Shown here in pieces: positions 907 through 32,711 of a DNA stretch of 37,430 bases. Numbering within the stretch: the first letter of the stretch is position 1; every line of letters begins with the position of its first letter. Both the position numbers and the translations under genes were made by a program. Source of the stretch: a virus; IMG/VR virus record IMGVR_UViG_3300029953_001734, positions 1 to 37,430 of that record; one strand, 5' to 3'. The notes under the pieces are model-generated. The model was not told the DNA's origin. It worked only from the letters and a program-made list of their open reading frames with translations, and ran no database searches.

Positions 907-946
907 TATTACTACTATTAAACACCAGTGGCGTTGGCACCATTCA
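907..946 (-). repeat. Four-copy stop-codon-associated element, copy 1
   Basis: On the minus strand this copy contains GGTGCCAACGCCACTGGTG, preceded by TGAAT, and continues with TTTAATAGTAGTAA, which copy 3 shares. It starts 9 bases after the TAG of the upstream gene. An ATG inside it opens a 15-codon frame (minus strand, 943 to 896) starting MVPTPLV and ending in TAA before the tail-fibre gene. The other copies are at 13024-13061, 28177-28218 and 32688-32711, all in the same orientation relative to transcription. Confidence 0.85.
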
Positions 947-955
947 GCCACATCA

Positions 956-1315
956 CTACACTGCCCATTGCTCATCTATGAGCATGCCTATTGCAATTAC
1001 CTTATGCTTTACTAGAAAGCTGCAAATGTTCTCCATCTTCAGCCTTTTGATCGTTTTCTTATCGTTGATAATATTCATCGAGTTGAAGTTCTCATGCCAC
1101 AATAAAAGCAGTTGATCAAAGCTCAACCCTGCATACCTGCTTTTTAGTTCGTCTATAATCTTGGTGTCATATTCGCCATTCATTTTCTGGCCATCCTTTA
1201 TCATTGCATATACAATAGGTGCGCACCTTATAGTTTTTACCGTTTCATTATCAAGAAGCGTTTTGTCTACTATCTCCTTTAGCGGCAGGTTCATTGCCAA
1301 TCCTTTCTTTGCCAT
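956..1315 (-). CDS. Hypothetical protein, possible cargo (moron) gene
   Basis: A frame of about 119 residues beginning MAKKGLAMNLPL; an ATG three codons upstream (1324) is also possible. The product looks like a soluble, helical, Lys-rich protein with no signal peptide, membrane segment or motif I recognise. It sits between the gpI-like baseplate gene and the terminal fibre gene. It is bracketed by two different short repeats: a GATTAGCTGAT-type repeat upstream and copy 1 of the four-copy element directly after its stop. That bracketing suggests an inserted accessory gene rather than a core tail component, but this is inference. Confidence 0.55.
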   Translation of the reverse strand: MAKKGLAMNLPLKEIVDKTLLDNETVKTIRCAPIVYAMIKDGQKMNGEYDTKIIDELKSRYAGLSFDQLLLLWHENFNSMNIINDKKTIKRLKMENICSFLVKHKVIAIGMLIDEQWAV

Positions 1316-1354
1316 AATGCTCAATGTTTTTATCCTTAGTTAAATTATGTTCCC

Positions 1355-1388
1355 CATCAGCTAATCAGCTAATCATCCCATCAGCTCA
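1355..1388 (-). repeat. Tandem CAGCTAATCAGCTAATC-type repeat
   Basis: A short A/T-rich tandem repeat (CAGCTAATCAGCTAATCATC then CATCAGCTCAT) fills the gap directly after the TGA of the gpI-like gene. It resembles the repeat at 27248-27277, which also directly follows a stop codon. Confidence 0.65.
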
Positions 1389-1910
1389 TCAGAAATAAAC
1401 CACCGTATAATTATTCTTACCTGGCAACCGGTACTTATTTACCAATCCCCTCAGGTAGTTCACATCATATCCCGGCATCCCTGCCACAGCACTCGGCACA
1501 TTCACCACAAACTGCACACCCAGCGAATACGTCTCTATATCAGTATACAGCGGCACAGGATCAGGATCTGGAATCACACTATCGCCCACTTCACTGTCCA
1601 GGTCTATAAATACCGGCTTATCCTCATCGTCGAGGTAGCTGTAAATCGGGTCCTCATACGGCCCGTCACTTATGAAAATGCCGCGATCCACCGGGTCAAA
1701 CGTATCATTCAGCGCAGCCTGCATATAGCATACCTGGCTGTTATGCCCCAGATAATACAATGTAGACGCTTTAAACGCATTAAATTGCCCTTGCAGATAC
1801 ACCACAGGGCTCACCAGCACCCGCAGCCATGCCGTCATCACCTGCTGGCGCAAACGCACCGGCACATTCAGGTCACTCACCACATCTATATCCACATCAT
1901 ATACACTCAT
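1389..1910 (-). CDS. Baseplate protein in the gpI position
   Basis: A 173-residue soluble protein. The first 65 residues (containing VRLRQQVMTAWLRVL and FNAFKASTLYYLGHNSQV) resemble a protein often encoded near the end of Bacteroidota contractile-tail operons. The C-terminal half is acidic. It follows the baseplate J-like gene, separated only by the small secreted-protein gene, which is the position of gpI (gp48 in Mu) in P2/Mu-type tails. The role as a baseplate-periphery protein linking J to the fibres is inferred from gene order. No enzymatic motif is visible. Confidence 0.55.
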   Translation of the reverse strand: MSVYDVDIDVVSDLNVPVRLRQQVMTAWLRVLVSPVVYLQGQFNAFKASTLYYLGHNSQVCYMQAALNDTFDPVDRGIFISDGPYEDPIYSYLDDEDKPVFIDLDSEVGDSVIPDPDPVPLYTDIETYSLGVQFVVNVPSAVAGMPGYDVNYLRGLVNKYRLPGKNNYTVVYF

Positions 1911-1913
1911 AAA

Positions 1914-2162
1914 CTATCTTTTTTTAACCCAAAATTTTTGATCGTGACGAATGGCCTTTAACCCTTCATATGTTAATCGTTGGCACTCCATGACGTTTTT
2001 CCGCATCGGGTAATACAAACTATCATGCGCCATATACAAGCACGTAAGGCTATCAGCCAAATATCTCTCCTTTGCCTCCTTCACATCTTTACGCGAAACA
2101 TGCGCAAACGTTGCTTTACTCACAAAGCATAAGAGAACGAGCATTATTATTATCTTTTTCAT
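1914..2162 (-). CDS. Small secreted protein inserted between baseplate genes
   Basis: 82 residues. The N-terminus is a clear Sec signal peptide: MKK, a hydrophobic core (IIIMLVLLCFVS), and a probable cleavage site after KATFA. The mature part of about 61 residues is charged and helical with two cysteines, and ends in KKR. It interrupts the usual J-I gene pair and is preceded by a TTTTCAAAT-type repeat. A periplasmic or surface role, for example altering the lysogen envelope or excluding superinfection, is plausible for such an insertion but not shown by any motif. I do not recognise the family. Confidence 0.6.
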   Translation of the reverse strand: MKKIIIMLVLLCFVSKATFAHVSRKDVKEAKERYLADSLTCLYMAHDSLYYPMRKNVMECQRLTYEGLKAIRHDQKFWVKKR

Positions 2163-2168
2163 TTTCGG

Positions 2169-2203
2169 ATTTTCAAATTTTCAAATCAACACATTTTCAA
2201 ATT
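2169..2203. repeat. TTTTCAAAT-type intergenic repeat
   Basis: Two TTTTCAAAT units, a CAACACA spacer and a third unit fill the gap between the J-like stop (2206) and the next start. Related copies are at 3046-3080, 8819-8853 and 11296-11331. Such repeats are, from general knowledge, common between genes in Bacteroidota genomes. Confidence 0.75.
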
Positions 2204-2205
2204 AC

Positions 2206-3036
2206 CTACACCCCATAAGGCACATAAGTAATATTCGCATTAAAGTAACCCTCATCCACCACCAGGTATCCTGCATCAGGCGTATATATTGGGTTCACGC
2301 TCACATACGGCGTAGCCCCATAGTTAGCCTGCGCCACATTATTCTCCGCTATTATCACACCTGGCACAGCTTGTATCGCTGCCACCATAGCATTATATAT
2401 CAGCACCCCGTTAAAAGGCAGTGCGTCCACAAATGCGTTCAGCGCGTCCAGCACCGGCGTGTTCTCAGTCCCGTCTATCCTTTCCCCAGTCGCGGTCAGC
2501 ACAGTCGGGTCATAATAGATCGTCCAGCCCGTTTGCAGGTTATCGCCATTACCGCTCGTTATCTGTAGCCGCACGCCTGCATCCTTCACCTTCCCCATAT
2601 AAGTTGTTAGTCCGGTAAGCTGCCCGCTGCTCAGTGGCCCCAGCACACCGCCCGTCAGCGTTGCCACTTTTATCCGCACCAGGTTCGGGAGCTCCACCGC
2701 TGCCGCAAAGTTCACTACCAGCACCGTCGGATCAGCCGGAGGCACCACAGCATATACATCGCTGTCAGCAGGCAGGCTCACCCCATATTGATAGGCCATT
2801 GCCTTAGTCACATACCATTGCAGCGTATGTGGCTTCTGTGCCGCCAGTATCGCCAGCACATTGGCCACAAACACATCAAACAATGTTTCCAGTACCCACT
2901 GGCAGCTCGCCACCACCCACGTCCACAGTAGCCATATCGCCACATTACTGGTGCTCGTAAGTGTGGGGGCCAATACCGGGTCTGCATTCTTCGCTGCAAC
3001 CAGTGCCGCCTGTATCTGTGCTATACTCCTTGCCAT
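2206..3036 (-). CDS. Baseplate J-like wedge protein
   Basis: 276 residues. The start (MARSIAQIQAALVAAKN), the Trp-rich segment at about residues 34-50, and the C-terminal pattern around VLIYNAMVAAIQAVPGV followed by a beta-rich tail match the short Bacteroidota form of baseplate J/gp47-like proteins. In contractile tails this protein forms the baseplate wedge that triggers sheath contraction. Order fits: spike, fibre, gpW-like and LysM-like genes upstream and a gpI-like gene downstream. A TTTTCAAAT repeat lies on each side. No signal peptide. Confidence 0.7.
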   Translation of the reverse strand: MARSIAQIQAALVAAKNADPVLAPTLTSTSNVAIWLLWTWVVASCQWVLETLFDVFVANVLAILAAQKPHTLQWYVTKAMAYQYGVSLPADSDVYAVVPPADPTVLVVNFAAAVELPNLVRIKVATLTGGVLGPLSSGQLTGLTTYMGKVKDAGVRLQITSGNGDNLQTGWTIYYDPTVLTATGERIDGTENTPVLDALNAFVDALPFNGVLIYNAMVAAIQAVPGVIIAENNVAQANYGATPYVSVNPIYTPDAGYLVVDEGYFNANITYVPYGV

Positions 3037-3045
3037 CTTATATTA

Positions 3046-3080
3046 ATTTTCAAATTTTCAAATCACCACATTTCCAAATC
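3046..3080. repeat. TTTTCAAAT-type intergenic repeat
   Basis: Same arrangement as the copy at 2169-2203 (two units, CACCACA spacer, a third slightly diverged unit). It lies directly after the stop codon of the gene at 3085-3699 and before the J-like start. Confidence 0.75.
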
Positions 3081-3084
3081 AGCA

Positions 3085-3699
3085 TTACAGATGCTGCAAA
3101 GTCACCACTGCACTTGCATCATAATTTATACTGCCTCCACCTGTCGCCATTACAGTTGAAAACGTGATAACACTCCCTGATTTTGTATAAATACTCACAG
3201 CCCCGGGGGCTTCCCATCCGGTGGCGCTCGCATTTATAAAGGTGTACGTTTGCAGTGTATTGTGTATATCCGTCCAGGATACTTTATATTGAAGAACATC
3301 TGTACTAATGCTGTTTACATTTAGTTGGTCAGATATTAAATAGTTACACTGGCACGTCGTCGTATAGGTTCCTATTGTCTGGGCAGCTGTAGCGCCATTC
3401 ACATTCACTACCATCACATCGTGCGATGAGCTTCCGCTGCCGGATAGCGCTCGCAATACTCCGGCTGTATCCGCCAGAGCAGTGCTGTCCTTCGTACTCC
3501 AGTTATATTCCACAATCCCACCGATCTTGAACTTCTGCGCATTAGTCCATACACCGGCACTATCTTCAAGCCCTAGCATATAGCTGCCTGTATCTACTGC
3601 TCGCAAAGGCGTACTGTCTATATTTCTGGGCGCAAAAGCCTCTGTCATCACAATGAGTGCTACCACAAGCGCACCTATCCAAAAACCTGTCTTTTTCAT
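3085..3699 (-). CDS. Fibre-like protein with signal peptide
   Basis: 204 residues. The N-terminus is a Sec-type signal peptide: MKKTGFW, a hydrophobic core to about residue 18, and likely cleavage after EAFA. The rest is Ser/Thr/Gly-rich and beta-like. It contains DSTALADTAGVLRAL, closely similar to the DTAGVIRTW motif repeated in the large fibre at 4633-6450, so the two may share a module. It lies inside the baseplate operon between the LysM-like and J-like genes. A fibre-tip or host-recognition part is the best guess, but the export signal is odd for a protein assembled onto a cytoplasmic virion. Confidence 0.5.
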   Translation of the reverse strand: MKKTGFWIGALVVALIVMTEAFAPRNIDSTPLRAVDTGSYMLGLEDSAGVWTNAQKFKIGGIVEYNWSTKDSTALADTAGVLRALSGSGSSSHDVMVVNVNGATAAQTIGTYTTTCQCNYLISDQLNVNSISTDVLQYKVSWTDIHNTLQTYTFINASATGWEAPGAVSIYTKSGSVITFSTVMATGGGSINYDASAVVTLQHL

Positions 3700-3713
3700 A
3701 ATCGTTATTTGTT

Positions 3714-4366: not shown

Positions 4367-4367
4367 A

Positions 4368-4622: not shown

Positions 4623-4632
4623 AATCGTATGT

Positions 4633-6450
4633 TTACCAAAATCTCTCTTGAAGCATTTGTATAAAATTCACCGCTACCGATGCTGATCCCGTACCCGTAT
4701 TGACCCATATCACCGGCTCCAGGTTTACATTTGTCGCAGGTATTTTAGTCGTAATAGCACCGCTGTACACCACTGTAGGCGCTGCCGTTTTTGTCATTAC
4801 ATCAAGCTCCATCAGTATTCCGGTAGATGTAGAAGCTCCAGCAGCTGGAGTCAGGAATATGGTAAGCCTGTACCAGTTATTCTGATTAGGTGTAATGCCG
4901 GTATTGATCTTCGCAGCCGTTCCGGATGCACCATTGGTTAGGAACTGAAATGTTCCATCTGAAACGTCCTTACTCAAACCGATAATATTAATATTAGCGC
5001 TTGGGTCAGTAGTCGCAGTAGGTGCCGCATTGCTATTGGGGTTATACCCTATAAATATTCGCTCTGTCGATGCATAAACGCCCAATCCAAACTCCACGGT
5101 TAATCTTGTGGCGCCAGAATATGCCGTATTTTGCAGCAGCACCGGGTTGACCGATGGCGATGATGCATAATACCAACCTGCCGATGAATTAACAGCCGCT
5201 GTAGAAGCTGCCTTAACAGTAAATATATTTGGCAATGCATTAGTAGCATCATAGGTGGTATTTACCACTGTGGCACTACCAAGAGAGGCGTATATTGAGC
5301 CACCTGAATATGTAAAATCTGTTCCTTCCGGAAGGAGGGATGCACTTCCCACCTGCTGATATAGTTTGCTCAACCTATGTTGGCTCAGCGATGCCTGTAA
5401 AATATACTCACCACCTAATGACGGTATTGCATGAATATCATCTTCACCCATCGCATTATTACTGTATACCTTAGCATACCCCGATGCAGGTGTAGTAGGA
5501 GCGGTATTCTGGCTGAGCATTAGAAAATTACCGTCAGTAGCGTTAAAGCAATAGGAAGAACCTCCTAAAGAACCCGCATTATTAAATTGAAATTCTCCTT
5601 GTACACCACCAACAGTTGCCCCGCTCGAAGGAGCAGCCACCCACGACAGCGCCCCGCTCACCACACCCAGCACATACCCATTAGTACCGATATTAAACAA
5701 ACTCCCATCACCCCGCACTAGCTGCGTGATCGCGCCGGTAGCCATAAAGCTATACACACCGGTGCTGGTAACGGCACTCGTCGGTGTCACAGAATATGCC
5801 GCTACATTGGACACTACCTTGATGCTTGTTACTGCATTAGTCAAATACCCCCTGCTATTCAGCCCCGCATTCGTTACCAGGAACGTAGAAGTATCGCCAT
5901 AAGTCAGGAACGTAAGTAAATCCCACGTCCTGATCACACCGGCAGTATCACCCACAGCCACCGTTGTAGCATAGCTGCTCAGCGCTGAAGAAGTTATATA
6001 CCCCCTGCTATTCAGCCCCGCATTCGTTAGCAGGAACGTAGAAGTATCGCCATAAGTCAGGAATGTAAGTAAATCCCACGTCCTGATCACACCGGCAGTA
6101 TCACCTACTGCCACCGTTGTAGCATACCCACTCAGCGCAGATGAAGTAATATAACCCCTGCTGTTTAGCCCCGCATTCGTTAGCAGGAAGGTAGAAGTAT
6201 CACCATAAGTCAGGAACGTTAATAAGTCCCATGTCCTGATCTCACCGGCAGTATCACTGGCCACACCTGTCACCCAGCTCGTATCCAAAGGAGATAAAGT
6301 ATAAGTGCCAAGCCCCGGTAAAAGATAGCTGCCATTAGCCGTGAGGTCTATACTCACCCCGTTAAGCACTATGATCCTGTGCGGCACACTCTGCCCAAAG
6401 CTGCAAAAGCAGCTCACTAAAAACAGTATGGTTAAAATCCTTTTCATCAA
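4633..6450 (-). CDS. Large tail fibre with signal peptide and 51-residue repeats
   Basis: 605 residues. Residues 1-19 (MMKRILTILFLVSCFCSFG) form a typical Bacteroidota Sec signal peptide, with a probable cleavage near FGQ. A region around residues 50-210 holds three near-identical 51-residue repeats containing DTAGVIRTWDLLTFLTYGD and TNAGLNSRGY. The rest is a beta-rich body with a C-terminal lectin-like look (GLGVYAST, YNPNSNAAP). Repeats in a fibre shaft give length and can change by recombination. It follows the spike gene, so a receptor-binding or spike-associated fibre is likely. An export signal on a tail fibre is unusual; the same is seen in several neighbours. Confidence 0.6.
   Translation of the reverse strand: MMKRILTILFLVSCFCSFGQSVPHRIIVLNGVSIDLTANGSYLLPGLGTYTLSPLDTSWVTGVASDTAGEIRTWDLLTFLTYGDTSTFLLTNAGLNSRGYITSSALSGYATTVAVGDTAGVIRTWDLLTFLTYGDTSTFLLTNAGLNSRGYITSSALSSYATTVAVGDTAGVIRTWDLLTFLTYGDTSTFLVTNAGLNSRGYLTNAVTSIKVVSNVAAYSVTPTSAVTSTGVYSFMATGAITQLVRGDGSLFNIGTNGYVLGVVSGALSWVAAPSSGATVGGVQGEFQFNNAGSLGGSSYCFNATDGNFLMLSQNTAPTTPASGYAKVYSNNAMGEDDIHAIPSLGGEYILQASLSQHRLSKLYQQVGSASLLPEGTDFTYSGGSIYASLGSATVVNTTYDATNALPNIFTVKAASTAAVNSSAGWYYASSPSVNPVLLQNTAYSGATRLTVEFGLGVYASTERIFIGYNPNSNAAPTATTDPSANINIIGLSKDVSDGTFQFLTNGASGTAAKINTGITPNQNNWYRLTIFLTPAAGASTSTGILMELDVMTKTAAPTVVYSGAITTKIPATNVNLEPVIWVNTGTGSASVAVNFIQMLQERFW
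5845..6300 (-). repeat. Three tandem 153-bp in-frame coding repeats in the fibre gene
   Basis: The phrase around CCCCTGCT(A/G)TT(C/T)AGCCCCGC recurs at about 5848, 6001 and 6154, exactly 153 bases (51 codons) apart, with most bases between conserved. The differences are mostly synonymous or give variants such as SALSGYA versus SALSSYA and LLTNAG versus LVTNAG. Confidence 0.85.
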
Positions 6451-8188: not shown

Positions 8189-8809
8189 TTAATTACCACT
8201 CAGCTCTATCAGGTTGAACGGCACCTCCTCCTTCATCGTTACTGTGTAAGCCTTCACATTCTTCACCCCCACCGTAAATGGTAAGTCCATATCCCTTATC
8301 GTTACCTGCTGGCTTCCGCTTTTATTTGGCCGCATCAGGAACAGGTCCGTAAGCGCACACTTCAGCGTAAACGCCGTACCGCTCTCCCATAGTCCCCGCA
8401 GCTCTGTCAGCTCATCTTCAGGTAGTTCGTTCGCGCCATCTTCATTGATGATAAAACCCTTTACGCCGATCTCTATACTGCCCCTGTTGATTATCTCGCT
8501 CACAATTCCATCCCGGTTCACCAGCTCCGTCTCCACCACCTTCTTCTTGAACCTCATGCTCACCACAGGGTTAGGCAATTCATAAGTCTGCTGGTTACCG
8601 CTGCTGTCGGTGTACACACAGGTCACCGGCAGATATATCTCAACCCCGTCCCAGTTATTGGCATACAATGGCGATCCATAATTACCCGTCTGTTTACGCG
8701 TAGCCTTAGTATCACCCGTCACAGGCTTGAATGTCGGGTCAAACGCACTCTGCGGCACCCCGAAAACATTTGTAAACAACCACGGTAATCCTAACGGTAT
8801 TTCTGCCAC
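8189..8809 (-). CDS. Tail protein between tape measure and hub
   Basis: 206 residues with a GTG start (GTGGCAGAA). Beta-rich, containing VSMRFKKKVVETELVNRDGIVSEIINRGS and a C-terminal MKEEVPFNLIEL. This pattern resembles a conserved uncharacterised tail protein (DUF6046-like) of Bacteroidota myophages. By position it would take the place of Mu gpN or of a LysM-type hub adaptor. There is no enzymatic motif. A TTTTCAAAT repeat separates it from the tape measure gene. Confidence 0.55.
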   Translation of the reverse strand: MAEIPLGLPWLFTNVFGVPQSAFDPTFKPVTGDTKATRKQTGNYGSPLYANNWDGVEIYLPVTCVYTDSSGNQQTYELPNPVVSMRFKKKVVETELVNRDGIVSEIINRGSIEIGVKGFIINEDGANELPEDELTELRGLWESGTAFTLKCALTDLFLMRPNKSGSQQVTIRDMDLPFTVGVKNVKAYTVTMKEEVPFNLIELSGN

Positions 8810-8818
8810 TTTATAATA

Positions 8819-8853
8819 ATTTTCAAATTTTCAAATTCACACATTTTCAAATT
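8819..8853. repeat. TTTTCAAAT-type intergenic repeat
   Basis: TTTTCAAATTTTCAAATT, a CACACA spacer and a further TTTTCAAATT fill the gap after the tape measure stop codon, overlapping it by two bases. Same pattern as the copies at 2169-2203 and 3046-3080. Confidence 0.75.
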
Positions 8854-10528
8854 AGTTCCCCATCGCCTTCGGTATCCGCGAAAGCACCCTATATAGCATT
8901 TCTTCAAATTCCCCTTCCACATCCTTCACTCCGTCCTTTACATTGCTAAAATAGTTTTTCATATTCTCACCTATCCTTGCGTTGATCACCAGGTGAGTGG
9001 GCCCACCACCTATGATGCTGTCGCTCATATCGCTCAGCGCATCGCTCGCATCACTCGCACCCTTCTTCACCTTATCGGTCAGCTTGCCCTTCTGCTTCCA
9101 GTATTCGCCAGGCAGCGTAGTTAGGTCACTGTCACTTATTGTCGCGGCCACACCGCCCACTGTTCCCCTGCTATTCGTGTATGCGTCAAAGTGGTATGCC
9201 GGTGGCGCTCCCGCCTTGTTACGGTTCCATATTTCCCAGCCTATTGTAGTTGCTATATAGGCCAGTGCGGCCACACCACCAGTCGCGGCCAGCATTTCAC
9301 CCGCTGCCATACCCGTCATTGCCTCCAGTCCGCCAGTTGCTGCGCCAAGGCCCTTTGCCAGGCTAAAGCCGGCTATACCTTCACCCGCTCCGCTCAGTCC
9401 GCCCATAAACCCTTTTCCGGTATTTATCACCGTCATTGTAGCATATGCGGCCACAGCCCATTTTATAAGGCTTTCTGTAGTCTTTATCCACTCTTTTATA
9501 GTGCCTGTATGTGTGCTCGTCCAGGAGATCAGGTCCACGGTCTTATTGCCCAGGTATTCTATGCCCGGCACCAGCTTATCCAGCGTTGCGGGTAGGTTAT
9601 CCAGCGCAGGTGCCAGTTTATCCAGCAGCTTGCCCATGATCGGCAGCAGTTTTATCCCAAACTCTTCTTTCGTAGCCTCAAAGTTGGTGCTGGCAAGTAT
9701 GTATTTGCCCGTATCCGTTTGCATCAGCCGCTCCTGCATATGGTCAAATATGCCGCCCTTGCCTGTCGCTATATCCAGCGCCTCGTTAAACAGCTTTAGC
9801 CCCTTCGCTCCGTCCTCCAGGCGCTCGTGCCATTGCTGCGTGCTGCCGCCATATTTCTGCTGTAGCGTGCTGATCGGGTCAAAGCCCATGCGAAGCAGCG
9901 GGAAGGTTTCATGCAGGTTCAGTTTACCCGTTCCCTTTACTAACTGGTAGGTTTGCACCAGTTGGTCCAGGTTACCCGCATCGCCACCGGCTATATCTTC
10001 AAACTGCCTTAACCTTTTATCTATCTGCTGGTTATTCAGGTGCGATGCCAGTAAGCTCTTCGCATCCCCAAACAGTTGCGTGCCATACATGCTCTTCAGC
10101 AGGTTCGCGTGCGTCTGCTCATAAAGCTCCTCGCCATGCTCAGGGCTCATGATGTTAAGCATGTTCTTCGTCTTCTGCCCCTCCATCCCCTTCGTCACAC
10201 TTTCCTTCAGGAAGTCAATACCAAAGTCCACTCCGCGCTCCACACCCCTTGTCACCATCTCGCCCGCCACAGTGCCCTTGGCCACATCCCACATGCTCAG
10301 CTGCTCCTTCTTCCGGTTCACCCGGTCCAGGTGTTCCTCCAGCTCGTCCAGGTGGCTATGGTCCACCTTTATCTTTGTTTCCTGCCCTAGCTTATCTAAC
10401 CCCCGCTTCACCACGGCGATCTTGTCGCCCATGTCACTAAAAACAGCGGAAGTCGTGACACCCACCTTACGGATATCACGACTTACAGTCTCTTTTAATT
10501 GAAGTACGAAGGTTAATAAATCGCTCAT
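8852..10528 (-). CDS. Tape measure protein
   Basis: 558 residues, long and helical: an N-terminal coiled coil (about 1-80, with LDELEEHLDRVNRKKEQL), a helical shaft, and a Gly/Ala-rich hydrophobic segment near 370-430 (INTGKGFMGGLSGAGEG, GMAAGEMLAATGGVAALAYIA). This is the usual make-up of tape measure proteins, which set tail length and pass through the tube. It follows the two chaperone frames and shares an ATGA overlap with the second. At 558 residues the tail is expected to be short, by the usual rough proportionality; the exact length is not derivable here. Confidence 0.8.
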   Translation of the reverse strand: MSDLLTFVLQLKETVSRDIRKVGVTTSAVFSDMGDKIAVVKRGLDKLGQETKIKVDHSHLDELEEHLDRVNRKKEQLSMWDVAKGTVAGEMVTRGVERGVDFGIDFLKESVTKGMEGQKTKNMLNIMSPEHGEELYEQTHANLLKSMYGTQLFGDAKSLLASHLNNQQIDKRLRQFEDIAGGDAGNLDQLVQTYQLVKGTGKLNLHETFPLLRMGFDPISTLQQKYGGSTQQWHERLEDGAKGLKLFNEALDIATGKGGIFDHMQERLMQTDTGKYILASTNFEATKEEFGIKLLPIMGKLLDKLAPALDNLPATLDKLVPGIEYLGNKTVDLISWTSTHTGTIKEWIKTTESLIKWAVAAYATMTVINTGKGFMGGLSGAGEGIAGFSLAKGLGAATGGLEAMTGMAAGEMLAATGGVAALAYIATTIGWEIWNRNKAGAPPAYHFDAYTNSRGTVGGVAATISDSDLTTLPGEYWKQKGKLTDKVKKGASDASDALSDMSDSIIGGGPTHLVINARIGENMKNYFSNVKDGVKDVEGEFEEMLYRVLSRIPKAMGN

Positions 10529-11274: not shown

Positions 11275-11295
11275 CTTCTTTTATAACTTAAGTGC

Positions 11296-11331
11296 AATTT
11301 TCAAATTTGCACATCTTCAAATTTTCAAATT
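11296..11331. repeat. TTTTCAAAT-type intergenic repeat, variant order
   Basis: One TTTTCAAATT unit, a TGCACA spacer, then two further units directly after the tail tube stop codon. It has the same building blocks as 2169-2203 in the reverse order. Confidence 0.7.
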
Positions 11332-11761
11332 AAACAACGGCTATCGCCATCGCCAGCCCCGGCAGGTCCACCTGCATCTTCTTATCATTCTGCGCCATTT
11401 TAAACATCGCCTCGCTGATCTCGCAGCCGGTAACGCTTATCGTGCTCATTGTCCGGGCTCCTTGTGCTCTGAATACTCCTGCAACATCAAATGCCACATC
11501 CGTTATATCGTCACCACCCGCAGCCACAGCCGCCGCCCATATGCTGCGCACCGCCTCAAGCAACAGCGTTATCTTGAAGGGGTATTGCTTATTGCCGCTC
11601 TGTATGCTCAGCGGGTTCACATGCGCCGCGTGCAGGTATTCTTTATCGGTCTTTACACCCGCTTCAAAATCCGTCACCTTCGCCACCTTTACACCGCTCA
11701 CATACACATCCAGGTCATCCCATTCCTGGTCCTTTGTACTGAAAAAAGAAATTCCCGCCAT
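11330..11761 (-). CDS. Tail tube protein
   Basis: 143 residues, beta-rich: DVYVSGVKVAKVTDFEAGVKTDKEYLHAAH, then NKQYPFKITLLLEAV and a C-terminal TISVTGCEIS. It directly follows the sheath gene, the usual order for contractile tails, and has the size of Bacteroidota tube proteins. Tube subunits stack as hexamers inside the sheath. A CTTTTTAA leader lies 17 bases before the ATG. No signal peptide. Confidence 0.65.
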   Translation of the reverse strand: MAGISFFSTKDQEWDDLDVYVSGVKVAKVTDFEAGVKTDKEYLHAAHVNPLSIQSGNKQYPFKITLLLEAVRSIWAAAVAAGGDDITDVAFDVAGVFRAQGARTMSTISVTGCEISEAMFKMAQNDKKMQVDLPGLAMAIAVV

Positions 11762-11821: not shown

Positions 11822-12988
11822 TTAAAGCCCAAATCCCAGCGTCACATTTATTGTTCCCGCATAAGCTTCGCTGTCTATCGCAAGGTTCACATTTACAGTA
11901 CCGCTCTCCACCACATTCTGTGTTGGGTCTATAAAGCAGGTGCAGCCGGTACAGTTGCCCAGCGCCGTCATGTTCTGGTTGATCGCTTCCTCAATGGTAT
12001 TGCTCAGGCTCAGTGCAAAACCCGGATCAATAAGGCCCGTTCCTGGCACACTTGGGATCTCGTCATCCACCACCTGCACAAACATGGTATAGGCAATGCG
12101 CTGCGCTTTGTCTATCACACGCCCACGGCACAAAAACACATAATCATCAGTACTCGCTGTCAGCGCCACGTCCGGGCTGAAGAAGTAGCCGTTTACATTC
12201 GCAAACGTCCGGAAGGTGATAAAGCCTTTACCGCTGATCACTGCCAGGTTAGCGCCCGCGGTTTCCACCGTAGCAGTCCCTACATATGCCTCACTGATCG
12301 GCAGCGCGCCATTACGCACCCTGCTTATTTTGCGCTGCACAGGCAGGCTGGCTATAAGCCCCAGCAGCATACCCATGTTTGCAGCCTTTCCGCTCTGGTA
12401 GTCACCCAGCAGAAAGAAGCTCCGGTTATTGGTAGTGCCGCTCGTCATGTTCGTCAGCGAGCTGTAAGTATTATTAAAGCTCGAAGCACCTATGATGATC
12501 CGCAAAGGGTTCTGGGCAGTAAAGAAAATATTTGCCAGCACAGCCGCTTTTGTCGCCCCGGTATAACACGCCGGGTTGATCCCCGCGGTAATAGACCCCA
12601 CAGTCACTACCGTATCGTCAGTTAATACCCCGGCAAACTTGATCGCGCCATTTGCGAAGTTCAGCAGCGCTATCGCACCATTCGCATTAGTGGAGTCACA
12701 CATGCCGTCCACGGTCATGGTATCAGGCACAAGCATCAGGTACAGTTGCGCACCCGTTCCGGCCATAGTATAGAAATCCTGTATCTGCCGCCATGCAAAT
12801 GGGTTATTGGCATTACTGATCCCGGCAGCGGTCACATCGGCCATGCTCGTCACCAGTATCGGCGTTCCAGCCGTATATCCGTCCGTTTCGCTCACTCCGG
12901 TCAATACCATCCCGCACACGCCATCAGCCGTTTGCAGCGTAGCGCCCAGCGCCCCATTTCCTAATGCAATATTTATTGGATTGCTCAT
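11822..12988 (-). CDS. Tail sheath protein (DUF2586-like)
   Basis: 388 residues. The start MSNPINIALGNGALG, the segments GVCGMVLTG and PFAWRQIQDFYTMAGTGAQLYLMLV, the C-terminal domain with KGFITFRTFANVNGYFFS and RVIDKAQRIAYTMF, and a final strand-rich arm fit the Bacteroidota tail sheath family (DUF2586). The sheath contracts to drive the tube through the cell envelope. It is followed by the tube gene. Upstream lie copy 2 of the four-copy element, its 16-codon frame, and a CTTTTAAT leader 18 bases before the ATG. Family recognised by pattern. Confidence 0.75.
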   Translation of the reverse strand: MSNPINIALGNGALGATLQTADGVCGMVLTGVSETDGYTAGTPILVTSMADVTAAGISNANNPFAWRQIQDFYTMAGTGAQLYLMLVPDTMTVDGMCDSTNANGAIALLNFANGAIKFAGVLTDDTVVTVGSITAGINPACYTGATKAAVLANIFFTAQNPLRIIIGASSFNNTYSSLTNMTSGTTNNRSFFLLGDYQSGKAANMGMLLGLIASLPVQRKISRVRNGALPISEAYVGTATVETAGANLAVISGKGFITFRTFANVNGYFFSPDVALTASTDDYVFLCRGRVIDKAQRIAYTMFVQVVDDEIPSVPGTGLIDPGFALSLSNTIEEAINQNMTALGNCTGCTCFIDPTQNVVESGTVNVNLAIDSEAYAGTINVTLGFGL

Positions 12989-13023
12989 AAAAACCTTAAT
13001 TAAAAGCTTATTGTTTCAACTCA

Positions 13024-13061
13024 TTTACTACTATCACCACCAGTGGCGTTGGCACCATTCA
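13024..13061 (-). repeat. Four-copy stop-codon-associated element, copy 2
   Basis: Contains GGTGCCAACGCCACTGGTG exactly as in copies 1 and 4, then GTGATAGTAGTAAA, a one-base-shorter relative of the extension in copies 1 and 3. It starts two bases after the TAA of the upstream gene. The internal ATG (minus strand, 13058) opens a 16-codon frame starting MVPTPLVVIVV that ends with TAA at 13008-13010, just before the sheath leader. Confidence 0.85.
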
Positions 13062-13063
13062 GC

Positions 13064-13585
13064 TTACTTTGCTGCGCTCATCAATGCAGCCAGGGCATCC
13101 CTTGCAGTATCCGCATCGGTCACGGCATCGTTATATGCAGCGGTAGCATCAGCAAGTTCTTTTGTTGCCTTGGTTACGGCCTTAGTGAGTGCTGTTTTAG
13201 CGGCACCCGTAGCGCTAGCGCCATCGTTCTTGGCGTTATTGGCTGTGTCCAGGTTCAGTTGCGCCTGGTCAAGGTTTGCCTTAGTGGTTTCCACATTCTT
13301 CTTTGCAGCCGCATCGGCATTCTGTGCTATTTGCAATGGCGTCAGCGCTGGGGCCGCCGTAGTTCCGGTAGCTGCTTGCGTAAGATCACCACCTTCAAAC
13401 GCCTCAGCCCTGGTCACAGGAGTCACCGTCGCTAACGAGGGTGTCTTGCCCTTGCTCAGGTTCACCCTATGCGCATTGGCATTGCTCTCCTGCTTAAATG
13501 CCAGGCCATCACCGGTAAAGTAAAGTGTATCAGTACCCGGATTACTGTTGAAATATTTCTGAACCTGTAACGTATTCTTTTGCAT
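13064..13585 (-). CDS. Hypothetical Ala-rich coiled-coil protein before the sheath
   Basis: 173 residues. The first 45 form a small folded-looking unit (YFNSNPGTDTLYFTGDGLAFK...HRVNLSKGK). A linker follows, and then about 90 residues of alanine-rich heptad-like helix (KKNVETTKANLDQAQLNLDTA, ADATAAYNDAVTDADTARDAL). It lies between the lysis cassette and the sheath, where Mu-like phages carry small head-tail or scaffold-like genes. It has a CTTTTAAT leader 17 bases before the ATG, like the capsid and sheath genes, which points to strong late expression. Function not recognised. Confidence 0.55.
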   Translation of the reverse strand: MQKNTLQVQKYFNSNPGTDTLYFTGDGLAFKQESNANAHRVNLSKGKTPSLATVTPVTRAEAFEGGDLTQAATGTTAAPALTPLQIAQNADAAAKKNVETTKANLDQAQLNLDTANNAKNDGASATGAAKTALTKAVTKATKELADATAAYNDAVTDADTARDALAALMSAAK

Positions 13586-16592: not shown

Positions 16593-16699
16593 TATACTAT
16601 TGCTCGTCAGGAGCAGCGTACAGGTAAGATTCATGTCATGCCCTGATGGGTTGTGTATATGGTGCATTGGATGCTGCATTGATTCAAAAAATATTTTTG

Positions 16700-16771
16700 T
16701 AGCAAGGACGGGGATCGAACCCATGACCTTCGAGTTATGAGCCCGACGAGCTACCGCTGCTCTACCTTGCG
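16700..16771 (-). tRNA. Initiator-type tRNA-Met (CAU)
   Basis: A 72-base cloverleaf without encoded CCA. The anticodon loop CTCATAA gives CAU. The gene closely matches bacterial tRNA-fMet: position 1 is C and faces U72, so the acceptor end is unpaired; the D stem has the initiator-type A11-U24 pair; the anticodon stem carries GGG on the 5' side against C-U-C, so one of the three initiator G-C pairs is a G-U. The D loop is two bases shorter than in E. coli. It lies in the late operon between the capsid-neighbour gene and the lysis cassette. Confidence 0.9.
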
Positions 16772-27696: not shown

Positions 27697-28167
27697 CTAA
27701 CTATTGATTGAGTCCCAATTCGTTTCCCAGCACTTATTCTTAAACCATGTCTCCGGGTTCATCTTACTCTTCCACTGGCACCTGCTCAGGTGCCGCAGGT
27801 AAGCAGGTAGCGCAGATATACACCGCTGCCGCTCAGCCTTACTCAAATTCCCCCATGCCTTCAGGCACCGTGCCTTATTTATCGGCTGTCCAAACGGCCA
27901 CCAGAAGTCATTTTCAAAATCCAGCTCCACTTCACCCTCCGCAAACTTCACCTTACCCGTCATCGGCCCCCATCCCTGTTCAAAACCCGCACCGTAACGC
28001 ACAGGCACACACGATACCACAAACTGCTTCTGCCGGTCATCTAGGCACGCCCCTCGCAAGTCCACAACCAGTAGCGGCGCAGAAGACTCAGCGCCCACAC
28101 CCGGCTCACCGTATGTCAGCTCCATCGCCCCGCTAAACTTATCCCCCGTTACAAGTATCTTTTTCAT
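27697..28167 (-). CDS. Hypothetical early protein with replication-protein-like C-terminus
   Basis: 156 residues from MKKILVTGDK. The frame is open 16 codons further, to the ATG inside copy 3 of the four-copy element, which would add the MVPTPPVFNSS extension. The C-terminal third (FWWPFGQPINKARCLKAWGNL, ERQRCISALPAYLRHL, MNPETWFKNKCWE) has the pattern seen at the end of many phage replication and DNA-binding proteins (a Trp-rich helix set ending in a P-x-TW motif). Function not recognised beyond that. It lies between the gp16-like and MazG/MazZ-like genes. Confidence 0.55.
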   Translation of the reverse strand: MKKILVTGDKFSGAMELTYGEPGVGAESSAPLLVVDLRGACLDDRQKQFVVSCVPVRYGAGFEQGWGPMTGKVKFAEGEVELDFENDFWWPFGQPINKARCLKAWGNLSKAERQRCISALPAYLRHLSRCQWKSKMNPETWFKNKCWETNWDSINS

Positions 28168-28176
28168 TGTCCAAAC

Positions 28177-28218
28177 GTTTTTACTACTATTAAACACCGG
28201 TGGCGTTGGCACCATTCA
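28177..28218 (-). repeat. Four-copy stop-codon-associated element, copy 3
   Basis: Same core as the other copies with one change (CACCGG for CACTGG) and the TTTAATAGTAGTAA extension of copy 1. It abuts the TGA of the upstream gene. Here the internal ATG (28215) reads in frame into the next gene without a stop, giving MVPTPPVFNSS as a possible N-terminus. Confidence 0.85.
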
Positions 28219-28689
28219 TCATTCGTGCACACCCAGCTCTTCCAACCGCTTATTTATAGCATCATGCTGCATATTCACTTCGTAACCACCACCATACAAG
28301 CCATGCTCATCCAGCAGCGCCGTCTTTTGCTTATACAAAGCCTGTATTTCCCCCTGCCTTATTTCCTCATCACTCTTTATATGTCTGTAGCTCCCATCTT
28401 CATTATCCTTCCAGTTGCGGCCTTTGTTGATCTGCAACTTATAGTCAAAAGCATTCAACACCTCAAGCATACTTATCCCTTCGCGGTGGGCGCTGTCAAT
28501 AATGCATCCGAGTATATCAGCATATTCAATCGACTTGGCCCAACCACCGGCATTATTATCAATGTCACTGATCACCTCATCTATCTCCCGCTTCGCATGC
28601 AGCAAAGCGCCCTTACTCGTTCCCTTCGGAAATGTTGCCGATGTCCACTCCAGGTGTTCGGCTGTCAATTGCTCAAATGATTTAGGCAT
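28219..28689 (-). CDS. MazG/MazZ-like dNTP pyrophosphohydrolase
   Basis: 156 residues, all-alpha. Metal-binding pattern of the MazG superfamily: HAKREIDEVISDID (E35, E38, D42 region) and EYADILGCIID (E55, D58), followed by LNAFDYKLQINKGRNW. The start EHLEWTSATFPKGTS and the overall order fit the DUF550 dATP/dGTP diphosphohydrolase group, which includes MazZ. These enzymes convert (d)NTPs to monophosphates. No PurZ or Z-specific polymerase is present here, so a 2-aminoadenine genome cannot be claimed. It may shift the nucleotide pool during infection or act against alarmones. Confidence 0.75.
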   Translation of the reverse strand: MPKSFEQLTAEHLEWTSATFPKGTSKGALLHAKREIDEVISDIDNNAGGWAKSIEYADILGCIIDSAHREGISMLEVLNAFDYKLQINKGRNWKDNEDGSYRHIKSDEEIRQGEIQALYKQKTALLDEHGLYGGGYEVNMQHDAINKRLEELGVHE

Positions 28690-28701
28690 GTTATATATTT
28701 T

Positions 28702-29052
28702 TTAATCAAACAATCTCTGTAAATTCTTTTTCTTTTCCCTGTTACGTCTGGCATTCTCCATATGCCTTGGCCGGTCATAATTCAGGTGGCAGCGCTGGCA
28801 CCATGCCCGCAATCTTTCCAGTTGCACATTATGGTTCTCTTTATCATGGTCCAGGTGCGCAATAGTTAGCACCACTATACTCCCGTTATCAGGCCGGTTA
28901 CTATGGTTCTTAAGCCTGCAATGCTCATTTTCACACCTCGCCTCAGTTACTATTTTCCCATCCCCATCCCGCACCTCACCCGCCCGTTTCAGCACAGCCG
29001 GTCTTATCTCACTAAACCAATTACGCGGATATTCAGAATAATTGATCGGCAT
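28702..29052 (-). CDS. HNH endonuclease
   Basis: 116 residues. Zinc-binding cysteine pairs C40/C45 and C85/C88 surround the HNH core AHLDHDKENHNVQLERLRAWC, with catalytic His near 69, Asn near 75 or 91, and His89 in CHLNYDRPRH. Such small HNH proteins in phages nick or cut DNA, assist packaging, or work with a modification enzyme. The ATG overlaps the stop of the methyltransferase gene (TAATG), so the two are co-translated. A restriction-modification-like pair is possible but not proven. Confidence 0.75.
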   Translation of the reverse strand: MPINYSEYPRNWFSEIRPAVLKRAGEVRDGDGKIVTEARCENEHCRLKNHSNRPDNGSIVVLTIAHLDHDKENHNVQLERLRAWCQRCHLNYDRPRHMENARRNREKKKNLQRLFD

Positions 29053-29795
29053 TAATCTATTATTTGGTGATTATAATTAGCCTTATAAAATGCATATGCA
29101 AATCCCATAGGCGTGTTACTTCTCAACTCCTTAGTCTTATCAGATTTACCGCCTAATTTTTGAGTATATGACCCTTGCGGAGCACATTTAACTGGTTCTA
29201 TTGGCTTTTTGACCGGCATGGTAAATTCGCCCCATAACCCTGTTTTTTTGTTGTATGCATTGCAATCAATAACGAGCTGCGTTTCCTCCCACGTTACATC
29301 TTTACCATCCTTCTTACGGATGCGGTCTAACTCCCTCTTCTGCTTTGTCGTAATATTCAGATATCCGGCATAGTCGCACGGGTTAAAATAACGGGGCGAT
29401 CCTATGCCTGTCAGTTTACCGATTCTGCCGACAGGGTTTTCGAGTGTCCAGAAAAATGTACCACCGTTTTCATAAAACTCTTCGTCTGTAGGTCTGAATA
29501 AATCCACAAGCCTTTGACACTGGTTAACAAGCGCCACACTCTTTGCTGTGGTTCCATCGGCATCTTTCTTTCCCCAGTACTGTGCACCGGATACCGAAAA
29601 ATCCGTACAGGGAGCAGCTATTAAAACACCATCTACATCCTCAAAAAGATCAAGAGCAGTTTCCGCGCTATCAATTAAATTAATATCCATAAACTCAGAT
29701 AGCTTAATATCCCAGCAGATCACATTCCATCCCTTTTCTTCAAAAGGACGTGACCAATTGCCTGAACGATCAAATAAACTGAGTAATGTTTTCAT
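29052..29795 (-). CDS. DNA cytosine-5 methyltransferase-like protein
   Basis: 247 residues. Motif I-like LLSLFDRSGNWSRPFEEKGW, motif IV with the catalytic Cys63 (IAAPCTDFSVSG), motif VI-like WTLENPVG (E119) and a C-terminal SNTPMGFAYAF patch. It is shorter than typical Dcm/HhaI enzymes (about 330 residues), so the target recognition domain is small. It probably methylates phage or host cytosines, protecting DNA from restriction. Its upstream leader has a CTTTTTAA box. The HNH gene is coupled downstream. Confidence 0.75.
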   Translation of the reverse strand: MKTLLSLFDRSGNWSRPFEEKGWNVICWDIKLSEFMDINLIDSAETALDLFEDVDGVLIAAPCTDFSVSGAQYWGKKDADGTTAKSVALVNQCQRLVDLFRPTDEEFYENGGTFFWTLENPVGRIGKLTGIGSPRYFNPCDYAGYLNITTKQKRELDRIRKKDGKDVTWEETQLVIDCNAYNKKTGLWGEFTMPVKKPIEPVKCAPQGSYTQKLGGKSDKTKELRSNTPMGFAYAFYKANYNHQIID

Positions 29796-29856: not shown

Positions 29857-30069
29857 TCACACAATCGTACTATTATCACTACTATTCGCCTCCAGCACAG
29901 GCCACTTAAACCAGCTCACCACACCATTCCACCACCGGCGCAGCTGCTCTCTGCGTTTCCGCCGCCTTATGGCCTTATCAAGCTCTTTAGCGCTCTGCAT
30001 TATATCCAGCAGCCTGTTATGCTTTTCCTGCTTCAGAGTCAGCCTATATTTTACATTTGCGTTTGCCAT
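29857..30069 (-). CDS. Small basic hypothetical protein
   Basis: 70 residues with a highly basic middle (AIRRRKRREQLRRWWNGVVSWF) and a Ser/Asp-rich end. Probably helical and nucleic-acid or membrane-surface binding. It directly follows the Gam gene. The 61 bases between it and the methyltransferase start contain nothing recognisable. Confidence 0.5.
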   Translation of the reverse strand: MANANVKYRLTLKQEKHNRLLDIMQSAKELDKAIRRRKRREQLRRWWNGVVSWFKWPVLEANSSDNSTIV

Positions 30070-30089
30070 GATATCAGTTTGGTTAGTAA

Positions 30090-30593
30090 CTATTTGTCCA
30101 CTTCAGTCTTTACCGGCTCCAGGAAGAAGCTCTCCTCCTTGTCCACCTTGAAGCCCAGCTTCTCCATGCCTTTCGGTTTTTCCTTTACGATCAGCACCTT
30201 ATCCATTGCCGGAGTGCTCCGCACATATTTTTCCCAGGCTTTACGCTTTGACATTACCAGCGCAATTTTCTTTTCATCAAACCCGTCCAGGATCATCACC
30301 TTCGGTTTGCCATCCCGGAAGCCCACGTTAGCGCCAAACGCCTCCATGCTCTTATCTTTCGGGAAAAGTTTCACCCTGTTTTCCTCGCAGTACTGCTTTA
30401 CGATCGCAAACTGTTTTTCCTTCTCTTGCATCAGTTTTTCAAACTGCGGATTATACTTCAGGTTGATTGGTTCCAGCTCCTTGTCCCGCTCTGCTGCAAG
30501 GCTGCATGCCTGGTTATCATTATGCACATAACCCTTTAGTGCTGTCTCATACGCTTCCTGCGTTACTACTTGTGTTGCGATCGCTTTTGCCAT
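30090..30593 (-). CDS. gam: Gam-like host-nuclease inhibitor
   Basis: 167 residues. The central coiled coil (ERDKELEPINLKYNPQFEKL, EKEKQFAIVKQYCEENR) followed by FPKDKSMEAFGANVGFRDGKPKV is the pattern of the Mu Gam family (PF07352), which binds double-strand DNA ends and shields them from exonucleases; it is related to Ku. It is in the usual early-operon location. Confidence 0.85.
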   Translation of the reverse strand: MAKAIATQVVTQEAYETALKGYVHNDNQACSLAAERDKELEPINLKYNPQFEKLMQEKEKQFAIVKQYCEENRVKLFPKDKSMEAFGANVGFRDGKPKVMILDGFDEKKIALVMSKRKAWEKYVRSTPAMDKVLIVKEKPKGMEKLGFKVDKEESFFLEPVKTEVDK

Positions 30594-30618
30594 CTTTTTT
30601 TTATTGTTTAAACCGTTA

Positions 30619-30795
30619 TTAATACAGTATTTTCAACAGTGTATTTACTTCCTGCACCATTTCCTGCCTATGCTCAAATACACTAATTTTAAAACCTTTA
30701 TCCTTAATGCCAGGAATCGTTTCTTTATATATTGCCAACATTGCCAGTAAATCATCAAGCCGCTCATTTGCCTTCTCCTTTGTAAACTTGCTCAT
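30619..30795 (-). CDS. 58-residue hypothetical early protein
   Basis: A short frame starting MSKFTKEKANERLDDLLAML and ending LLKILY. Its ATG overlaps the stop of the upstream gene (ATGA), which supports it. It is helical and charged, with no motif. It lies just upstream of gam. Confidence 0.6.
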   Translation of the reverse strand: MSKFTKEKANERLDDLLAMLAIYKETIPGIKDKGFKISVFEHRQEMVQEVNTLLKILY

Positions 30796-31151
30796 AAACT
30801 ATCTTTTATCAGTTTTTTCATTGCCCCTTTGAAATTTGGGTTTTTCATCTCCTTGTCCAGCGCATTAAATATTTCCTGTATTACACGTCCTTGCAGAGGG
30901 GTAAGAGCAATATCCTTCGGTGCCCAAAGCTGCATAAAAGCCAGCGCCTCAGTACCACACAGCGTCATCGTATAGCTCGTTACATCCACATGCCTTTCCC
31001 CCATCTTTTCCCGCAGCTCAGTTATATGCCCCATCAGAAGCAGTTCATGGCTGTTTTCAGGCGTATAGATAGTTAGCAAGCCATCATAAACCATGTATAG
31101 CTCCTTAAAATCCCGCGCATTCATTTTAATTTTGATCAGTCCCTTTGCCAT
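30792..31151 (-). CDS. Hypothetical early protein
   Basis: 119 residues: MAKGLIKIKMNARDFKELYM, a central HELLLMGHITELREKMGER helix, then LCGTEALAFMQLWAP and a Lys-rich end. Soluble. It follows the DnaA-domain gene by a single base and is coupled to the next small gene. Conserved-looking but not recognised; a nucleic-acid or replication accessory role is possible from context only. Confidence 0.5.
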   Translation of the reverse strand: MAKGLIKIKMNARDFKELYMVYDGLLTIYTPENSHELLLMGHITELREKMGERHVDVTSYTMTLCGTEALAFMQLWAPKDIALTPLQGRVIQEIFNALDKEMKNPNFKGAMKKLIKDSL

Positions 31152-31152
31152 A

Positions 31153-31581
31153 TCAGTATTTATTATTTTCGGCTACCTTAAGTGCCTGGTTATACGTTTC
31201 ACAGAAAAATTTCTCCTTTGTAAAAATTCTTTTTCGCGCCATAAACAGGGAATGCATTACAGCAGTGTGCTCCCTATAGCCTGTGATCCTCCCCAACTGC
31301 ACCAGCGTCAATAGCGGAAAAGTATCACGCAGTATAAGGCAAGTGATCTGGCGAAGCCTTACGTAGTCCTGTCCCCGGTAGCTTATAAGCAGGTCATTAT
31401 ATTCCATACCTACCCCTTTCGCAATATCATGCGCCAGCGCCATTGCAGATTTTTCCACATCCATTACCGGCACCAGTCTGTACATTTTCCCCGTTAGCAA
31501 TCCCAGTTCATGCTCAGCATGCTCTATAATGCTATTTATCCGGAGCGACATATCGTTATTCACCACCTCCATCTGTTCCAT
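31153..31581 (-). CDS. Free-standing DnaA domain IV-like protein
   Basis: 142 residues. From about residue 62 (YNDLLISYRGQDYVRLRQITCLILRD..., then LVQLGRITGYREHTAVMHSLFMARKRI) it matches DnaA domain IV: the basic loop, the helix-turn-helix, and the signature GxREHTAVxHS corresponding to the DnaA GGRDHTTVLHA motif. There is no AAA+ domain. DnaA domain IV binds DnaA boxes, so this may recognise a phage or host origin sequence or act as a regulator. Located two genes after the RecA-like ATPase. Confidence 0.7.
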   Translation of the reverse strand: MEQMEVVNNDMSLRINSIIEHAEHELGLLTGKMYRLVPVMDVEKSAMALAHDIAKGVGMEYNDLLISYRGQDYVRLRQITCLILRDTFPLLTLVQLGRITGYREHTAVMHSLFMARKRIFTKEKFFCETYNQALKVAENNKY

Positions 31582-31582
31582 A

Positions 31583-31858
31583 TCATTCCGGTATTATGGG
31601 CACATACCTGCCCGGCAGGTTTTTACGTTCCTCTATCGTTGGTGCTTTGAAATAAACCATCGGCTGGCTCTGCCCCGGTAGCATCATATACCCGCATATC
31701 TGCGGATGGTTAATGCTCTTCAGCCACTTATTTATGTGCGCATAGCCTATCTTGGCGTTCATCATATGCCGCACAATGCTCCTCGCCAGCCAGCCTATTA
31801 CAATACCTGGGCGTTTCTCCACCCACTTTCTTACAAACTTTTCTACCAGTTTTTTCAT
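31583..31858 (-). CDS. Hypothetical basic early protein
   Basis: 91 residues. A very basic N-terminus (MKKLVEKFVRKWVEKRPG) leads into a helical part (WLARSIVRHMMNAKIGYAHINKWLKS) and a Pro-rich C-terminus ending GRYVPIIPE. It is placed between the RecA-like ATPase and the DnaA-domain gene. Not recognised; the charge suggests nucleic-acid contact. Confidence 0.5.
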   Translation of the reverse strand: MKKLVEKFVRKWVEKRPGIVIGWLARSIVRHMMNAKIGYAHINKWLKSINHPQICGYMMLPGQSQPMVYFKAPTIEERKNLPGRYVPIIPE

Positions 31859-31875
31859 CTTTTATAGTTGTTTTT

Positions 31876-31913
31876 TAATCCTGCAAATCCTTAAATCCTG
31901 CAAATCCTGATCA
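31876..31913 (-). repeat. AGGATTTGCAGGATT-type repeat
   Basis: On the minus strand the TGA of the RecA-like gene runs into CAGGATTTGCAGGATTTAAG and a second AGGATTTGCAGGATT. A related copy (AATCCTGAAAATCCTGATCA on plus) is at 33137-33156. This type of repeat is common between Bacteroidota genes. Confidence 0.7.
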
Positions 31914-32624
31914 TTTTTTAAATTGATTAACCTTCTTTTTACCCCAATACCCCCATGCGCCCTTCGTTGCATCCTCACCCTCCCAGATCACATAAGGCTT
32001 ATTGCCGCCATACCTGCTCTTCACAAAAGCCACAAACCCCTCCACACGCACCTTTATATCCACGTCAAACTCTATTTTGCAAGCCAGCTTACCATCCGGC
32101 TTCGACCCCTTATTATGGCTGATGAATATGAACCCCTTATTCGGAAAATGCTCCTTCAGGTATTTGTAATCATCCATATTCATATGCACATATTGCAGGC
32201 TGTCTATCACCACAAACTTTGCGCTCTTCTTTTTCTTCAGCTTCACTACCAGCTCCTCGAATGTCAGGTTATGGTCCCAAAACGTTATTTTACCGCTATG
32301 CTCATCCAGCGTCAGGTTTTCTTCAGCGTTCTTCTGCATCGTTCGCCGGTGTCCCTCCTCCAGCGCCCAGTACAGCACATCCCCATACCGCATAATTATC
32401 TTCAAAAACTGCATCGTCAACCTGCTCTTACCATTGCTGCTCGGACCGTATATGATCATCAATATCTGCTCAGTCATCTCCCCGAAACTCCTTTTCAATG
32501 ATTCCGGCAACCCCTCCAGCATCTTATACTTCTTCTGAAACAACTGCTTTAACCCCAAACCCTTTGCCTTTCCACTTGCCGCCCTTTTTCTCTTTACCGG
32601 TTGTATAGCTTCATCTACCTGCAT
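31911..32624 (-). CDS. RecA/RadA-like P-loop ATPase
   Basis: 237 residues. Walker A GPSSNGKS (60-67), a Glu-containing ALEEGHRR strand end near 88-94, Walker B KFVVIDS (136-142) and a later ISHNKGSKPDGK loop characteristic of RecA-fold replication ATPases (RepA/DnaB/RadA group). The C-terminus (VRVEGFVAFVKSRYGGNKPYV) completes the sheet. Likely a helicase- or recombinase-type motor for phage DNA. The ATG follows directly the TAA of the 27-codon frame carried by copy 4 of the element. N-terminus is Lys/Arg-rich. Confidence 0.75.
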   Translation of the reverse strand: MQVDEAIQPVKRKRAASGKAKGLGLKQLFQKKYKMLEGLPESLKRSFGEMTEQILMIIYGPSSNGKSRLTMQFLKIIMRYGDVLYWALEEGHRRTMQKNAEENLTLDEHSGKITFWDHNLTFEELVVKLKKKKSAKFVVIDSLQYVHMNMDDYKYLKEHFPNKGFIFISHNKGSKPDGKLACKIEFDVDIKVRVEGFVAFVKSRYGGNKPYVIWEGEDATKGAWGYWGKKKVNQFKK

Positions 32625-32687
32625 TTATACCTGATAGTTGTCTGTGTTAAAAAATACCATTGTCCCGGCCTCCGGCCCACCATTCAC

Positions 32688-32711
32688 CACCAGTGGCGTT
32701 GGCACCATTCA
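32688..32711 (-). repeat. Four-copy stop-codon-associated element, copy 4
   Basis: Same core as copies 1 and 2, then diverging after GGTGGTG. It starts one base after the TAG of the upstream gene. The internal ATG (32708) opens a 27-codon frame starting MVPTPLVVNGG whose TAA (32625-32627) directly abuts the ATG of the RecA-like gene. Confidence 0.85.

Follow-up and report, generated by a model that had tools for sequence, protein, structure and literature searches.

The 37,430-base virus record IMGVR_UViG_3300029953_001734 from IMG/VR, which we analyzed over its full length and refer to as the window, carries four copies of a short repeated element at gene junctions, and this element is the subject of the present analysis. 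Its gene content identifies the record as a transposable, Mu-like Bacteroidota phage. The right end encodes a transposase together with a DNA transposition protein, and other genes include a terminase, a portal-like protein, a protease, a major head protein, a DUF2586 tail sheath, a tape measure protein, and a baseplate hub. The nearest terminases are approximately 50 to 54% identical and come from genomes of the family Chitinophagaceae. Most of the structural and transposition genes have homologues in related prophage stretches; no close relatives were found in viral contigs when the sheath and the ATPase were used as queries.

A 19-nt core occurs four times in the phage, on the minus strand only, at 923-941, 13038-13056, 28195-28213 (with one substitution), and 32688-32706. 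TGAAT directly precedes every core, and the distance from the stop codon of the upstream open reading frame (ORF) to TGAAT is 9, 2, 0, and 1 bases in copies 1 to 4, respectively. These data confirm the preliminary description of this DNA, which had reported four near-identical minus-strand copies, each preceded by TGAAT and each located 0 to 9 bases after a stop codon. No core match with up to three mismatches arose in 100 dinucleotide shuffles, and no fifth copy was found elsewhere in the record. Homology among the phage copies runs past the core to ..GTTTAATAGTAGTA..TTGGACAA, and copies 1 and 3 have 43 nt in common at 95%. R1, a profile of the element built from sequence only, matches all four copies at 40 to 54 bits, from model position 15-23 to position 70-80.

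The four copies, all on the minus strand, have different neighbors. Copy 1 (902 to 957; 48.4 bits, E = 1.3e-13) lies between an accessory 122-aa ORF (956-1324) and a fiber-region gene (1-873); at this site in relatives, the fiber-region gene directly follows the homologue of ORF 1389-1910. Copy 2 (13008 to 13064; 44.6 bits) is found between ORF 13064-13585 and the tail sheath gene (11822-12988) and belongs to a subfamily marked by a one-base deletion (GGTGGTGATAGTAGTAA). Copy 3 (28166 to 28224; 54.4 bits) occupies the entire intergenic gap between a dATP/dGTP pyrophosphohydrolase-like gene (28219-28689) and gene 27697-28167, with the ATG of the latter gene located within its 3' end (GGACAATG). 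Copy 4 (32659 to 32722; 40.6 bits) lies between ORF 32713-33117 and the ATPase gene (31911-32624). Neither ORF 956-1324, which precedes copy 1, nor the pyrophosphohydrolase-like gene, which precedes copy 3, has a homologue in the related prophages. The second of these genes is part of an accessory block (28219-29795) that ends at copy 3, also contains a small ORF and a DNA methyltransferase, and is without homologues in those prophages.

The same element is a dispersed repeat in bacterial chromosomes. A 24-mer searched with up to three mismatches was present in 19 of 396 genomes from the family to which the phage's best terminase relative (genome G001) belongs, and the reversed control was present in none. 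The resulting family has a consensus of ~80 nt made of three blocks, GCTNAATAG, TGAAYGGTGCCAWCGCCACTGNNGCTNAATAGTAGNA, and GCTTGGACAATAA, with spacers of about 11 nt after the first and about 5 nt after the second; in terms of layout, two GCTNAATAG arms enclose the core, the first of them separated from it by about 11 nt, and the second is followed by TAG and then by a GCTTGGAC end. Copy numbers obtained with R1, which are lower bounds from 150 candidates scored per genome, reached at least 116 in genome G368, at least 31 in G332, at least 28 in both G356 and G313, at least 17 in G339, and at least 15 in G031. The element-bearing genomes other than G368 hold 1 to 31 copies, and most genomes hold none. 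In a phylum-wide sample, only 4 of 296 genomes had an R1 match, three of which also belong to the family set. The distribution is patchy even within one genus: 10 of the 13 genomes in the genus of G368 have zero copies, and two have seven diverged copies.

Host copies are intergenic. ORFs of at least 120 aa make up 74% of the fetched loci, and only 4 of 101 copy midpoints fall inside one. By crude ORF calling, and with the four phage copies counted in, the strands of the neighboring genes relative to the element were ++ in 26 cases, -- in 23, +- in 20, and -+ in 17, indicating no orientation bias, and the gap to the same-strand upstream stop codon varies widely in host genomes. The preliminary description had proposed that a core placed at random across the host genome, with no bias to gene ends or to phage genes, would be a generic host repeat; our core search across host-family genomes largely found this, in the form of a dispersed, intergenic, strand-unbiased repeat. 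There was no recurrent neighboring gene, the largest cluster comprising 5 of 93 loci. Conservation is 94% in the core versus 68% in the arms, a difference that may be due in part to ascertainment since the search started from the core; we saw no copy in which the arms were well preserved and the core degraded. A near-fixed hairpin (GGCTACCGTGTAGCC or GGCTACCATGTAGCC) lies downstream of many element copies in G368 (loci L074 to L113), in this genome only, and may be a local terminator-like addition. We found no description of this repeat in the open-licence literature, and the family appears to have been previously unnamed.

Comparisons between phage and host copies connect the phage to several branches of this family. 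Copy 2 shares 37 identical bases with the chromosomal copy L034, whereas its figure for the other phage copies does not exceed 28; for copy 4 and L034, the figure is 28. Host copy L033 carries the substitution seen in copy 3 (CACCGG). We confirmed the one-base difference noted for copy 2 in the preliminary description; chromosomal copies L033, L034, and L136 share it, which makes it the mark of a subfamily. Because the phage copies match separate host subfamilies, it is unlikely that the four arose by duplication within the phage. When R1 was applied to 20 fetched stretches of related Mu-like prophages, nothing significant was detected.

Presence and absence of the element at the same site were found in two places. 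One is the junction of copy 4, where the homologues of the flanking genes in prophage L206 overlap (TGATG) and the element is absent. The other is a junction in G368 whose two flanking genes are the same in congeners; the five congeners that align cleanly (G290, G141, G205, G319, and G687) have a spacer that is ~80 nt, or roughly one element, shorter, and G252 and G686 have other sequence there. The alignment of this single junction, with its diverged flanks, shows a gain of sequence in G368 but no exact insertion boundaries. No terminal inverted repeats were evident among 105 aligned copies.

Beyond this record, the element was found in seven stretches of phage contigs (L222, L223, L225, L226, L227, L228, and L229), of which L226 and L228 come from one 72.6-kb contig and L228 and L229 have the same sequence around the element. 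L227 carries a full copy that is antisense to both flanking genes. Two other candidates were rejected: the single match of an exact-core scan of IMG/VR (L005), which lies inside a coding region of an unrelated contig and was attributed to chance, and a match in L224 that lies inside a large ORF.

We consider it probable that the four phage copies are members of this ~80-nt, dispersed, non-autonomous intergenic repeat family of Chitinophagaceae, which resembles repetitive extragenic palindromic (REP) sequences and miniature inverted-repeat transposable elements (MITEs). The likeliest account is that mobile repeats of host type came to rest at phage gene junctions, and not that these sequences serve as a signal of the phage's own or encode a tiny peptide. 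We infer that the family is actively mobile and that its core is probably recognized by a trans-acting protein, such as a recombinase, a transposase, or another DNA-binding protein; a recognition site of this kind is likely because the core is near-invariant and was not seen degraded in any copy with good arms. Copies would spread by bursts in single lineages and would persist only where genes stay unbroken. In this compact Mu-like phage, gene junctions would be the tolerated sites, so that each copy would come to lie immediately after a stop codon, and copy 3 would also make up the stretch immediately before the start codon of the next gene. The closeness to stop codons in the phage can thus be attributed to its short gene gaps. 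The phage may have acquired its copies during residence in a relative of G399 or G271, by recombination or by insertions that occurred separately.

Several observations weigh against this interpretation. A mobilizing gene was not found, and Y1 transposases are near the element at only 1 of 20 loci. At the G368 junction, where the intergenic flanks are too diverged, neither a target-site duplication nor a sharp boundary was detected. The phage copies have no clear 5' arm, as reflected in model matches that start at positions 15 to 23. Their density, four in 37 kb or one per 9 kb, is higher than in every sampled host genome, and all four have the same orientation, for which the chance is 1 in 8. 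In addition, the element precedes a gp25-like baseplate gene (identified from sequence, without a profile search) at an equivalent position in L223 and L225, with a core better conserved than the surrounding spacer, which hints at selection. The high density, the uniform orientation, and the position kept upstream of the gp25-like gene in two diverged phages would be explained if a host repeat with a putative protein-binding core had been recruited by phages as a gene-junction site, for example, as a host-factor-dependent transcription signal or 3'-end signal. We view such recruitment as possible but doubtful.

None of the roles suggested in the preliminary description (stoperator, translational coupling signal, peptide leader, or phage module joint) found support. 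A structured RNA acting in mRNA as a 3' untranslated region stabilizer, a processing site, or a translational coupling signal could draw on a possible short core hairpin (UGGUG-CCAA-CGCCA) and on the conserved-sequence hairpin that follows many G368 copies. However, no covarying pairs were detected by RNAalifold on 17 copies or by an all-column covariation analysis on 100 copies, the first pair of the hairpin is often broken without compensation, and shuffle z-scores are near zero. An alignment-free test of arm pairing was near chance; one nominal signal among fifteen tests (outer arms, copies outside G368, p 0.004) is confounded by between-genome base composition. An outer AGCT/AGCT stem seen by eye was without statistical support. 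The element had no Rfam match at the gathering score in the window or, up to E = 5, in 10 element loci, and host copies occur in both orientations and also between divergent genes, so that we judge an RNA function unlikely. We give somewhat less credence to a stoperator-like operator array, in which a phage repressor, bound to cores that share one orientation at gene ends, would block transcription elongation in the prophage. Four asymmetric sites with one orientation relative to transcription, distributed over early and late operons, are what such an array would look like, and the core is kept at the same position between two related phages; the same sequence is, however, far commoner in host chromosomes, where it occurs in all orientations, the related Mu-like prophages lack it, the L227 phage copy is antisense to its genes, and the phage copies mirror host subfamilies.

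Mobilization as a classical REP by a REP-associated tyrosine transposase (RAYT; Y1 type) is suggested by the copy number, the intergenic placement, and the species-specific bursts, all of which resemble those of REPs, and by a RAYT-like gene located 145 nt from one element copy in G399. The inverted repeats that flank this RAYT are its own and differ from the element, and the element was found at 0 of 19 other Y1 loci. Y1 transposase genes were present in 8 of the 10 genomes tested; none was detected in G227 (7 copies) or G339 (17 copies). The element also lacks the 5- to 13-bp palindrome with a foot tag, having only a possible hairpin of 4 to 5 bp without covariation, and we regard mobilization by a RAYT as very improbable. 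The 44-nt inverted repeats on either side of this gene (L154:1308-1981) resemble GTAG-type REPs, here in a genome of the family Chitinophagaceae. The remaining proposal was that the element encodes a small translated leader (MVPTPLV...) or an alternative N terminus of the next protein. An ATG with an open frame is present in every phage copy; inspection of the sequence reproduced the frame lengths (15, 16, and 27 codons), the abutting TAA and ATG at copy 4, and the read-through of copy 3. Across the family, no core position varies more than the T of this ATG (55 T, 35 C, 9 G, and 1 A), the ATG is kept in 54 of 100 host copies and lost in 46, and the frames range in length from 6 to more than 60 codons. 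The L206 homologue of gene 27697 aligns from residue 17, which points to a translation start at the downstream ATG in the 3' end of copy 3. A coding function is therefore extremely unlikely, and the earlier suggestion of conservation at the nucleic acid level, not as a peptide, was correct. An integron-like cassette of a gene plus attC was considered since copies 1 and 3 follow accessory genes; it was rejected, as host orientations are mixed and conserved phage genes flank both copy 2 and copy 4.

The element is accompanied in the phage by other repeats. A second host-type intergenic repeat (the ATTTTCAAATTTTCAAAT family, direct-repeat family D2) is located at phage gene junctions at 2154-2205, 3031-3082, 8804-8855, and 11282-11333, the last on the minus strand. 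Counts of the ATTTTCAAATTTTCAAAT motif were 29 in G399, 11 in G271, and 10 in G001, with almost none in the reversed control, and two of the G399 copies lie within the region of a Mu-like prophage in that genome. A third, TGATCAGGATTTGCAGGATTAAAGGAT-like repeat occurs at two gene junctions (31877-31913 and 33120-33156), and an AGCTGAT-rich simple repeat at 1335-1400, between ORFs 956-1324 and 1389-1910, resembles a further intergenic filler repeat. Within a coding region, three tandem 153-nt repeats (5832-6290), 73 to 92% identical to the first, lie inside a 605-aa ORF (4633-6450). The phage also carries a tRNA-Met gene (anticodon CAT) at 16699-16771 on the minus strand.

This record is thus an example of a Mu-like phage with several host-type intergenic repeats at its gene junctions. 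The near-invariant core could serve as bait for finding the protein that recognizes or moves the family, and the element could be used to help assign hosts to metagenomic phages.

REP families of the GTAG and CGTC types have been described, and CGTC but not GTAG repeats are reported in Bacteroidetes (PMC3733652). Like REPs and REP doublets forming hairpins (REPINs; PMC3733652, PMC3116915), the element is short, intergenic, non-coding, and non-autonomous, is patchy between species, and reaches more than 100 copies per genome. Unlike them, it is ~80 nt long, has a conserved 17-nt core between two GCTNAATAG arms, and shows no clear palindrome, no GTAG or CGTC foot tag, and no RAYT flanked by the element. 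It shares with a Porphyromonas gingivalis MITE (PMC4596501) the character of a short non-autonomous dispersed repeat of a Bacteroidota lineage; it differs in that no terminal inverted repeats or target-site duplications were recognized in it. Like the stoperators of cluster A mycobacteriophages (PMC9283540, PMC6550527), the phage copies are short, asymmetric, transcription-oriented sites scattered in a phage genome. In contrast to stoperators, which are sites for a phage repressor, the element is absent from related prophages and commoner in host chromosomes.

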